Below are positions 20,568 to 24,011 of a stretch of DNA of 64,000 bases, piece after piece. Within the stretch, counting starts at the first letter, position 1, and each line of letters starts with the position of its first letter. The notes under the pieces were generated by a model. It was not told the DNA's origin and made no database searches. It worked only from the letters and a program-made list of their open reading frames with translations. The translations under genes and the position numbers were made by a program. Location of the stretch: contig OZ022576.1 in NCBI GenBank assembly GCA_963669155.1, positions 28,673,938-28,737,937 of the forward strand. Reading direction: 5' to 3'. This DNA is from Arbacia lixula. Its lineage: Eukaryota > Echinodermata > Echinoidea > Arbacioida > Arbaciidae.

Positions 20568-21302
20568 TCACCGTGTTGAGATAAGATTATGTATTGATGG
20601 TGAACACCAGGTGACTTTTATGTGATTATGATCCATTATCTGGCTAAATTTAGAGACCTGTTCAGTTGTTTGTACCTGTTCTCTCTCCTTGTCCTCGGCA
20701 TCCAGCTGGAGAATGAGCCTGAAGAGCCAAGAATTCCTGATGGCCCGTCTCCTCATCCCCGGCACTTGCTCCCCCTCACTGTCCCTCTTCTCCTCCTCCC
20801 TCCCCCTCCGGGTATCCTCTCGGTGGATGTGCCTCAGCGCCTCGTCCCAAGTCATCCCCGATGTCCCAGGGAACGCGGGGATGCCGCCGTGCGACTGGTG
20901 CGGAACTCGACCAGCGAGGGCGATGAGTCTAAAGTCCAGCTCGACTCGCGCTTCAACCTCATCCATCAGCCAGTTCAGAAAGACCCTGGCGCTAGAACGG
21001 TCCCCATCATCATTGATGTCCTCTTGCAGCTCTTCGTTCTTATCCAAAAGAACGTCACCACAATCCTCTGTGGATGTCGTCATCACGAAAGATTCCTCCA
21101 CCTCCGCAGCACTGCCTGAATCACCATGGTTACGGGGCGACTTCTCTTCGTCACTTGTTGTAAACTCTGAGTGTTGGCATGGAAAGTCATCCAGAGGTGT
21201 CGGTTGTGTTCGAATTTGTTCAGCTACTGCTGATTGGGCATGGGCCTTAAAGAAAGTGTCTCCCGCCCGCCTCAATATAACCATTTGAATGCGGGCAATT
21301 TT
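20568..21302 (-). CDS. Novel gene exon 4: module B and C terminus
   Basis: Starts AAAATTGCC after TTTTGGCAG in phase 0 and runs to TGA at 20570-20568. It repeats the exon 3 layout: LRRAGDTFFKAH, an acidic Ser-rich linker, ARVFLNWLMDEVEARV, then WDEALRHIHRED. It adds an Arg/Glu-rich charged segment and a last hydrophobic helix (NSWLFRLILQLDAED). Plus-strand open frames over the same bases are shadows; the minus frame is supported by both flanking splice phases. Confidence 0.68.
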   Translation of the reverse strand, partial: KIARIQMVILRRAGDTFFKAHAQSAVAEQIRTQPTPLDDFPCQHSEFTTSDEEKSPRNHGDSGSAAEVEESFVMTTSTEDCGDVLLDKNEELQEDINDDGDRSSARVFLNWLMDEVEARVELDFRLIALAGRVPHQSHGGIPAFPGTSGMTWDEALRHIHREDTRRGREEEKRDSEGEQVPGMRRRAIRNSWLFRLILQLDAEDKEREQVQTTEQVSKFSQIMDHNHIKVTWCSPSIHNLISTR

Positions 21303-24011
21303 CTGCCAAAAGGAAGAAAGAAAAAGGTTGTGAAGGACTAGATGTGGATGTACTGGCCTAATTGTGTCATCTACAATGCAGATCTTCGATACAAAATGGT
21401 AAAATCTGACATTTTTGGGGAGTGGCCTACATAGACCACGGAAGAGTGTTCAACAAAGGACGAGGTTCTTTTTTCAAGACCATTATGATTATGATGAATG
21501 AGAGACATAAGCTTCATGCAAGGTCTGCCCCCTTTTACATTTCATTTATATTTCAGAGTATTTGTCCTTTGGTATATTTGTTCTTTTTGTTTGTTATCAG
21601 CTTGCATGATTTTATCATACATCGCGTGTTTTGAATGAGTGCAAATAAATGAACGTGAACTTGAAATGTTAAAAAGAGGACATCGCACTGCTCCCTCATT
21701 CCATCTTAAAATTAATAGGAATAATAACATACCCTTATAAGGAAAGCCCGCTCATTCAATAAAGCGCTATGCTGGACCATGATTCCGACGTCCTCTATCA
21801 TTTGGTCGAGAAAGATCCTGGCACCGTCTTCCTCATCTTGGCATGATGATGATGTCTTTTCATCACCATAGCAACCAAGATTGGATGCATTATCATCAAT
21901 GTCCTCTTCATATTGGTTAAGGTGAATGGTGGGACTCTGGCGAATCATATGAGCGACGCGTAAAGCCTCTTGCAGAAAAGATGCCGGTACTCCTTCACCA
22001 CCTCCCATCTCTTCCTCTTCCTCCACCTCTACCTCTTTCTCCTCCACCTCTTCGCCATCGCTCACGAGCATCTTCTCTTCCATTGCCATGAAGGATGTCA
22101 TCTCCTTCTTCCACTCCTCCCCTCCAGTCAGCCATGTGGCGTCATCGGGCAGTAACCATGGTGACTGGGGAACATCAGCAGAAGCTGCCTCACGGAACAC
22201 TCTGGCCAGCTGTCGAGCCTCTTGGCAGACGAATGCCTTGAAGACACGATCCCTAACCCGCCTGAGCTCTTCTAGCTGGGCATTAGTTACGTCCTGAAAG
22301 TTCGAATTTCGAACAAAGATGTCAGAAGACACATTGCTTGAGAGAAAAATAATATCCGTTTATTCTACAGCTATCATGTTGTCGTATGTGTTTGGTTTAT
22401 GAACTTAGAATATACACGAGCAATATGAAGCAATGGAAATGTTAAGAAATATGATCAAGAACGAGAAGAAAAAAACATTATACAGAAATAAAGATAGACA
22501 CGGGGCGAATATTCCCAGAGAGAGAGAGAGAGAGAGAGACAGACAGACAGACAGACAGACAGACAGACAGACAGATAGCCAGACAAAGACAGAAGAAGAA
22601 GAAGGAGAGAGACAGACATACAGAAGGGGGTGGGAAAGGGGGGGGGGGGTGCGGGTGGCGTATGGTACGTATTGGGGAAGGGGTAGCGCCGACAGAACCG
22701 TTACACTAACAAAACACCAACACAAAAAACCATCACATTGAATAATGAAGAATTACATTAAACAATCATTGTACGACAACACCACAAGAATAAAAAATGA
22801 ATGTATGTTTCTAATTGCTGACATAATAAGACAAACCATACTTACGCTGATGACCTTCATCCTTTGAGCTGCTTCATCTTCGCTCTCCTGATCAAGGGTT
22901 GGATGCTCCCCACCTTCTTGATCTATAGTTTCAATACAAATGCCAAATACCCATTTCTATAATATATCTATATCACGACAAGACGTAAAAAGCTTATTTT
23001 CCCCCTCATGCTATTTCACAAGTCTTCTTTATATGGCTCATGTCACTGGTTCCTTCTTTTCTCTTCTTAAACACCCCCCTCTTCTTCTAGTCCAACTCCG
23101 TCTCTCTCTCTCTCTCTCTCTCTCTCTCTCTCTCTCTCTTTCTCTCTCTCTCTCTCTCTCTCTCTCTCTCTCTCTCTTTCTCTCTCTCTCTCTCTCTCTC
23201 TCTCTCTCTCTCTCTCTCTCTATTTTTCACTGTCTCTTCAAATTTAATACAATTATACCAAAATGTTGGTTAATAACACAACTATTCACATCATCTGTCA
23301 TATCCGCAATTCCCGGAAATTACGTTCAAACCGGCAATGCTGATTTTAGATACATGTGTAATTTAAAACGTTTTATATTTCGCATTAGTATATAATCTCG
23401 TTAGCAAATCATGATTATGAATTCAACCGGTAAGCATTTAACGTTTATGGGAAAATATTCCGTCTGTAGGCCTACGTTTTCTACCAACGCCACCACCGCC
23501 TTAAAAAGATAGGTAAAACGCCTGTCAATCTTTCACTTCGTTATAAAAAATACACATATAAGTATATTTATCATCATCAAAATAAACGCTCTTTAAAGAG
23601 GTTATAATAACATGCGTGAATAAATGAAGAGTTAATCTGTGAGATTCATGCGTATTCATTCGATGTTTCTCCAATGAAATAAGGCTAAGAGCATTATGGT
23701 TTTATAGTTCATTTAAATTCAATATTGTCGAGATTTAATCATAAGAAGTAAGGAGTATAGTAGTCTAACACTTAAGATTGTTCTTTGAAACTGTGTCATT
23801 ATTGATATAAAATAGATGTATATAAATATGCGCACTGTATCCTACCTTTTGAAGATGCGAGGTCCAAGATGTCCGATTTCCCTCTCGGACTACAAACAAC
23901 ATCGTCATCTGACTCGACGTCAGCCGCCGTCGCCGAGTCGATGTCATCATTGGTTATCTTCTCGTAGTGGTCGTCGCTATCGCGAGATATTTTCGAGTAA
24001 AAACAACCCAT
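20568..24011 (-). CDS. Novel 512-aa protein with MGC lipidation start and duplicated acidic/amphipathic modules
   Basis: I do not recognise this protein. Four exons join by GT-AG junctions in consistent phase: 24011-23846, 22922-22846, 22293-21733, 21302-20568, totalling 1539 bp. The product starts MGCFYSKIS, a Gly2/Cys3 pattern typical of N-myristoylation plus palmitoylation, followed by an acidic Ser/Asp-rich linker. Exons 3 and 4 look like diverged copies: each begins with a basic helix (LRRVRDRVFKAF; LRRAGDTFFKAH), passes through a Glu/Ser-rich stretch, and contains a similar amphipathic helix (ARIFLDQMIEDV; ARVFLNWLMDEV). Those helices fit the spacing of PKA regulatory-subunit anchoring helices, so a lipid-anchored AKAP-like scaffold is possible; this is inference only. 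No transmembrane segment or enzymatic motif is visible. In exon 4, GAACAG before GTACAA could be an alternative donor, which would change the C terminus. The gene converges with HSC70 and lies downstream of the mannosidase on the same strand. Confidence 0.72.
21733..22293 (-). CDS. Novel gene exon 3: module A
   Basis: 187 codons, phase 0 at both ends, from GACGTAACT after TTTCAG to ATAAGG before GTATGT. The order of features is a basic helix with LRRVRDRVFKAF, a Trp-containing linker, a run of consecutive glutamates, a helix with LQEALRVAHMIRQ, an acidic Ser/Cys stretch, and the amphipathic helix ARIFLDQMIEDVGIMV. Symmetric phase 0-0 boundaries would allow exon duplication without a frameshift, consistent with exon 4 being a paralogous copy. 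Confidence 0.68.
22516..22577 (+). repeat. AG/ACAG microsatellite in the novel gene's intron 2
   Basis: Runs of AG followed by ACAG units, without coding significance. The open frames crossing it are artefacts of the repeat. Confidence 0.85.
22846..22922 (-). CDS. Novel gene exon 2: short acidic linker
   Basis: A 77-base exon flanked by AACTATAG and GTAAGT. It encodes about 25 residues rich in Glu/Gln (includes HPTLDQESEDEAAQRM) and moves the reading frame from phase 1 to phase 0. Confidence 0.6.
23101..23221 (+). repeat. Long TC microsatellite in the novel gene's intron 1
   Basis: About 120 bases of TC repeats with rare TTT interruptions. The leucine/serine reading frames across it are artefacts. 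Confidence 0.9.
23846..24011 (-). CDS. Novel gene exon 1: lipidated acidic N terminus
   Basis: This encodes MGCFYSKISRDSDD and an Asp/Ser-rich stretch ending LDLASSK. Gly2 is the predicted myristoylation site and Cys3 the predicted palmitoylation site; Lys7 fits the usual basic preference. The exon is richer in CpG than its surroundings and ends in phase 1 at AAAAG before GTAGGA. The start resembles LAMTOR1 or small-membrane-AKAP N termini only in the lipidation pattern, not in what follows. Confidence 0.7.

Follow-up and report, generated by a model that had tools for sequence, protein, structure and literature searches.

What is encoded at positions 20,568 to 24,011 of a 64,000-nucleotide stretch of an Arbacia lixula contig (hereafter the window, to which coordinates refer unless a locus is named) is the question raised by this locus, for which an initial annotation had proposed an undescribed, lipid-anchored and possibly PKA-anchoring (AKAP-like) protein. 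The stretch holds a genuine gene on the minus strand, and this gene is one copy of a multicopy family. The interpretation that we favor, with moderate confidence, is that the gene has probably five exons and belongs to a family of adaptor proteins, most likely echinoderm, that are acylated at the N-terminus and act at the cytosolic face of membranes.

Four minus-strand exons (24011-23846, 22922-22846, 22293-21733 and 21302-20676) join in phase, as had been claimed, with introns of phases 1, 0 and 0 between them. Exon 1 (23846..24011) encodes residues 1-55 plus one base and comprises a putative acylation signal (MGCFYSK) and an acidic stretch with HYEK, DID and KSD. Together with the final base of exon 1, exon 2 (22846..22922) encodes 26 amino acids. 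Both exon 3 and exon 4 have phase 0-0. The former (21733..22293) encodes a first unit consisting of a predicted helix A (LRRVRDRVFKA..EAR), DATWLTGG, an acidic linker and a predicted helix B1; the latter (20676..21302) encodes a second unit consisting of a degenerate copy of helix A, an acidic linker, a predicted helix B2 and a C-terminal domain of 105 amino acids (20676..20990) that has 22 invariant columns in the 13 rows of our alignment A1, with the pattern GRV..QS..G.PA..GT..MT. No transmembrane segment was noticed in the product by eye, no predictor having been run.

The length of the product needs revision. Reading exon 4 on to a stop at 20568 does give the proposed open frame of 512 amino acids starting with MGC, but exon 4 ends in CAG followed by GTACAA, and a donor lies there or one codon later in all 15 exon-4 copies tested. 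Because this donor is so regular, the last 35 residues and the stop (20568..20675) are probably intron read-through rather than coding sequence. Two broken copies were left out of the donor test; one of them (L021) has no donor at the end of exon 4, and in the other (L020) the exon end was not recognised. A polypyrimidine-rich acceptor (TTTTTTCTCTTGTCAG) before 20489 would lead to a short fifth exon (20472..20489) encoding LMQAR and a TGA stop, so that the product probably has 482 amino acids. This fifth exon is tentative and moderately supported, because the fifth exons of four paralogues (L009, L010, L015 and L019, read by eye) differ from it; none like it was found among the paralogues compared.

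Alignment of the copies also revealed a conserved region directly upstream of the start (24012..24197), comprising the 5' leader and a probable promoter. ACGTCA or TGACGT, which we take to be CRE/ATF-like, occurs in this region in 12 of the 13 copies examined (L011 was left out), and GCGCAYGCGC, presumably NRF1-like, in seven of the 13; the window copy is without the second motif. A dispersed repeat, with further matches at L010 and L020, lies just downstream of the gene (19362-20104).

We searched the 607-Mb genome in which the window and all loci designated L0xx lie. On its contig C590, a COX1 frame has AAA at 2 of 2 expected asparagines, and its ATA, AGA and TGA codons fit Ile, Ser and Trp; this mitochondrial code is of the type used by echinoderms and also by flatworms. 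Exon 4 used as a DNA query returned 17 matches, itself included, and an exon-by-exon protein search gave 83. At least 14 close-family genes, the window's among them, lie on seven contigs: C1 (3), C2 (3), C8 (2), C9 (1), C15 (3), C17 (1) and C18 (1). This count is of first exons in the loci fetched and is a lower bound. Exon 1 is present in all 14 close loci, with Gly2 in 13 of them; exon 2 was matched at the protein level in L009, L010, L019 and L021 and at the DNA level in L010, L011, L012, L015, L016, L017 and L021. The pair formed by exons 3b and 4 is repeated in three loci (L012, L014 and L016), and L009 (2948-4066, minus strand) has a single frame of 430 amino acids that joins exons 3 and 4 and contains a truncated helix B1, an apparent intron loss. 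More distant members are L052-L055, with an MGNLLSRCC start in the three of the four that have a readable exon 1, and L056, which starts MGCLFSK and shows no C-terminal domain in the 3.5 kb fetched. Further matches listed include helix A at two places on C4, exon 1 on C7, and fragments on C3 and at C1:15.60 Mb. In a tree built from 20 rows of the C-terminal domain, 19 of them different, a subfamily B stands apart with 100/100 support, and most forks among the close copies lack resolution. Subfamily B has the same module order, in a single unit within one exon, and its C-terminal domain is 46-49% identical.

The exons of the window copy align with those of its paralogues, but at E 1e-8 the introns fail to do so except at their edges; over its first 400 bases, intron 1 scored 0.428 against L009 and 0.396 when shuffled. 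Because other paralogues in the genome also have the MGC exon and the splice sites, and because exons align while introns hardly do, the gene stands far beyond chance. Ratios of nonsynonymous to synonymous substitution rates (dN/dS), pooled over all pairs, were 0.47 for exon 1 (11 rows), 0.29 for exon 3a (11 rows), 0.46 for exon 3b (9 rows), 0.47 for exon 4a (7 rows) and 0.29 for the C-terminal domain (10 rows). These sets were made without L011, L020, L021 and second copies within a gene, and those for exons 1 and 3a include L013, which carries stops. Between the window copy and L009 alone, dN/dS was 0.19 in the C-terminal domain. Exon 3 is 94% identical in these two copies (window 21797-22331, L009 3561-4097) and exon 4 is 88% identical, a gap that could reflect gene conversion.

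Myristoylation together with palmitoylation is marked by MGxxxS with a nearby cysteine, and among 18 readable N-termini (that of L054 could not be read and is outside this count) Gly2 is present in 17, Ser6 in all 18 and a cysteine within residues 3-9 in all 18. The exception is the broken copy L021, which starts MDC. This pattern spans subfamilies starting MGC and MGN..CC. At the level of motifs, the N-termini therefore support the lipid anchor that had been read from the MGC start.

We compared exons 3 and 4 with each other at the levels of single sequences and of profiles. At their starts the two exons match without gaps along the zero diagonal, and the score of this block was reached by only 1, 2, 1 and 1 of 5000 shuffles in four kinds of shuffling, although this diagonal was chosen after it had been seen in an earlier comparison of the two exons. 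With two kinds of shuffling of 300 cases each, the two-block score was reached in 0 cases, and profiles of the exon 3 and exon 4 starts matched in hhalign with P 9.5e-7 and a probability of 91%. These results indicate that the helix A module was duplicated. For the gapless match between helices B1 and B2, 5, 8 and 1 of 1000 shuffles did as well. A single unit of helix A, WLTGG and C-terminal domain, as still seen in subfamily B, was probably duplicated to give the subfamily of the window copy, after which the second half of the first copy might have been lost and the first half of the second copy might have decayed.

Known families offered no identity for the product. A Pfam-A hmmscan of the 512-amino-acid frame at E up to 10 listed only ABATE and DUF4666, with nothing above cut-off, and NCBIfam at E up to 10 gave no match. 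The C-terminal domain had no family match in Pfam, NCBIfam or the Protein Data Bank (PDB); the best PDB profile matches were not credible (E 0.24 for the C-terminal domain and 0.31 for helix A), and PDB searches with the helices or the whole protein gave 0 matches. No relative was found in the viral contigs searched, none of 13 members matched PHROGs, and a bacterial match of 19 residues was rejected. In the open-access literature, no paper containing sequence strings of the family and none on an echinoderm myristoylated family was found. The description of the gene as undescribed and without a family thus holds for the copies of Pfam, NCBIfam and PDB searched but not for the genome itself, where it is no lone gene; its relatives may also stand as uncharacterised proteins in annotated eukaryote proteomes. 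The apparent orphan is instead one of a conserved and expanded protein family, the C-terminal domain of which is without match in those database copies.

In the acylated adaptor that we propose, the glycine after the start methionine would be myristoylated and a neighboring cysteine palmitoylated, which would tether the protein to membranes. Partner proteins would be bound by helix A with the DxxWLTGG that follows it and by the C-terminal domain, which would be mostly helical and has a conserved loop; the acidic flexible linkers would hold these partner-binding modules apart. The module at the start of exon 3 recurs in degenerate form at the start of exon 4. If lipid anchoring is real, echinoderms carry unexplored membrane adaptors in which modular duplication within a gene can be read exon by exon.

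Several observations weigh against this interpretation. The acylation is a motif reading, and the adaptor role is inferred because the product contains no recognised enzyme or known domain. In-frame stops occur in recognised exons of L013, L020 and L021 (at least three of 14 loci), such that the family also decays. Two comparisons gave dN/dS above 1, namely exon 3a of the window copy against L009 (1.64 on a synonymous rate of 0.04) and the C-terminal domain of L054 against L055 (1.50 on 0.03). A whole-exon Smith-Waterman comparison of exons 3 and 4 was not significant (p 0.153), which we think is due to the acidic linkers dominating the alignment, and profiles of helices B1 and B2 matched weakly in hhalign (probability 4%, E 0.0096). 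AlphaFold models of single sequences, with no alignment supplied, placed helices in the products of both exons at low mean predicted local distance difference test scores (41.7 and 40.6), and these models were not used for fold searches.

Among alternatives to such an adaptor, the one that survives best, although we consider it unlikely, is that the protein is an AKAP, with both helices B docking on the docking and dimerization domain dimer of PKA regulatory subunits and the lipid anchor placing PKA at the membrane, as smAKAP does. If so, the family would be a lineage-specific cAMP scaffold. The two putative PKA helices, B1 (ARIFLDQMIEDV; 21787..21822, residues 239-250) and B2 (ARVFLNWLMDEV; 20955..20990, residues 373-384, where the C-terminal domain begins), belong to two units that are duplicated at least at their starts. 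AKAPs have an amphipathic helix of 14-18 residues with a pattern for binding the R subunit. An AKAP consensus, LxxxAxxIVxxAIxxA, is given in the excerpt of PMC3682517. In a seven-position scoring, 9 of 467 segments of the window protein reached 6 of 7 positions, compared with a mean of 3.4 in shuffles, and 7 of 7 was reached by none; among the controls, a coiled-coil-like open reading frame of the same window reached 6 of 7 in 3 of 52 segments and three other pieces did so in 0 of 125. When only the six core hydrophobic positions are considered, exactly B1 and B2 qualify in the window protein, but a shuffled protein has at least two such segments in 152 of 1000 cases (0.152).

Across the family, this loose six-position spacing is kept in 20/20 B2 rows and 15/16 B1 rows. 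Each of the two row sets holds one place twice, the truncated B1 of L009 and the B1 of L020 are outside the 16, and a related pattern, present in every row, served to locate helix B2. Only one of the 20 B2 rows and two of the 16 B1 rows match the stricter RII consensus (0/13 and 2/10, respectively, in the smaller alignments A1 and A4). Moreover, helix B1 is truncated in L009 and subfamily B has a single such helix, helix B2 contains one invariant column of the C-terminal domain (F4) while most are found elsewhere in the domain, and in 17 of 20 rows B2 has a tryptophan at a position that would face the solvent. RIIa docking domains occur at three places in the genome, which indicates that a partner is present and nothing more. 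The hydrophobic spacing that had been claimed for the two helices is conserved; PKA anchoring is possible given these facts, and the AKAP label is unproven.

A second and less probable alternative is that the gene is part of a mobile element, or a decaying amplified repeat, rather than a member of a host gene family. The dispersal of copies over seven contigs and the stops in at least three of them fit this idea, as do the younger copies L015 (3267-9257), L011 and L016, which share ~6 kb with edges that fade into GA/CT microsatellite. However, inspection of the edges by eye revealed no terminal inverted repeats (no search for transposases was made), pooled dN/dS is below 1, the exons have outlasted the introns and the region upstream of the start is conserved, all of which we consider to speak for host genes.

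More speculative still, and in our view very improbable, is a family of echinoderm-expanded, membrane-tethered PKA regulators, in which helices that dock on regulatory subunits would be combined with a pseudosubstrate-like RRxA segment and each paralogue would set a local PKA threshold. The C-terminal domain keeps RRxA[AVI] in 12 of the 13 rows of A1 and in 19 of the 20 rows of a larger set, and RRxA/G is described as the RI pseudosubstrate motif in the excerpt of PMC13025221. Finally, a BH3-like apoptosis protein, suggested by ILRRAGDTFF in exon 4 with LxxxGDxF in the window copy, can be dismissed almost entirely, given that BH3-only proteins have a conserved LxxxGD core and that this core is not conserved in the family (the broken copy L013 has SD there and GD is absent at that place in eight other rows of alignment A3), that the 30-amino-acid stretch matched no chain in the PDB up to an E of 10 and that the Pfam scan listed no Bcl-2 family.

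Elsewhere in the window, HSP70-type exons (5964-6335 and 8759-9208, plus strand) and a class II alpha-mannosidase-type exon (47630-48031, minus strand) were recognised by eye, and a minisatellite at 53724-54399 would encode VGVVGR-like or PHPPHN-like repeats, depending on the strand.

How, then, does the proposed adaptor compare with known systems? The helix A region resembles the ABATE domain (PF07336) in score (E 0.002), but at 19.2 bits it falls below the curated cut-off of 24.4 and the match is absent in five other family segments scanned, such that we regard it as chance. The RRxA[AVI] motif of the C-terminal domain resembles that of PKA pseudosubstrate proteins (RI, PKI), in which RRxA/G is exposed and followed by a hydrophobic residue; the motif in the window product is short, however, and lies in a region modelled as helix at low confidence, and no other PKI feature was noticed. 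AKAPs in general resemble the product in having helices with hydrophobic spacing near the consensus of PMC3682517 (as excerpted), but the first consensus position is acidic in both window helices, methionine occurs in core positions and a larger conserved domain includes helix B2. The known protein smAKAP (C2orf88) has about 95 amino acids and one RI-binding helix, and its Pfam model is PF15127, which the copy scanned presumably contains; no smAKAP model was listed for the 512-amino-acid frame at E up to 10. The likeness to small-membrane AKAPs that had been drawn from the MGC start accordingly extends to an N-terminus fitting myristoylation and palmitoylation, smAKAP being likewise acylated (PMC13025221, excerpt), and to an amphipathic helix, whereas the window product differs in its length of ~482 amino acids, its two units and its conserved C-terminal domain.

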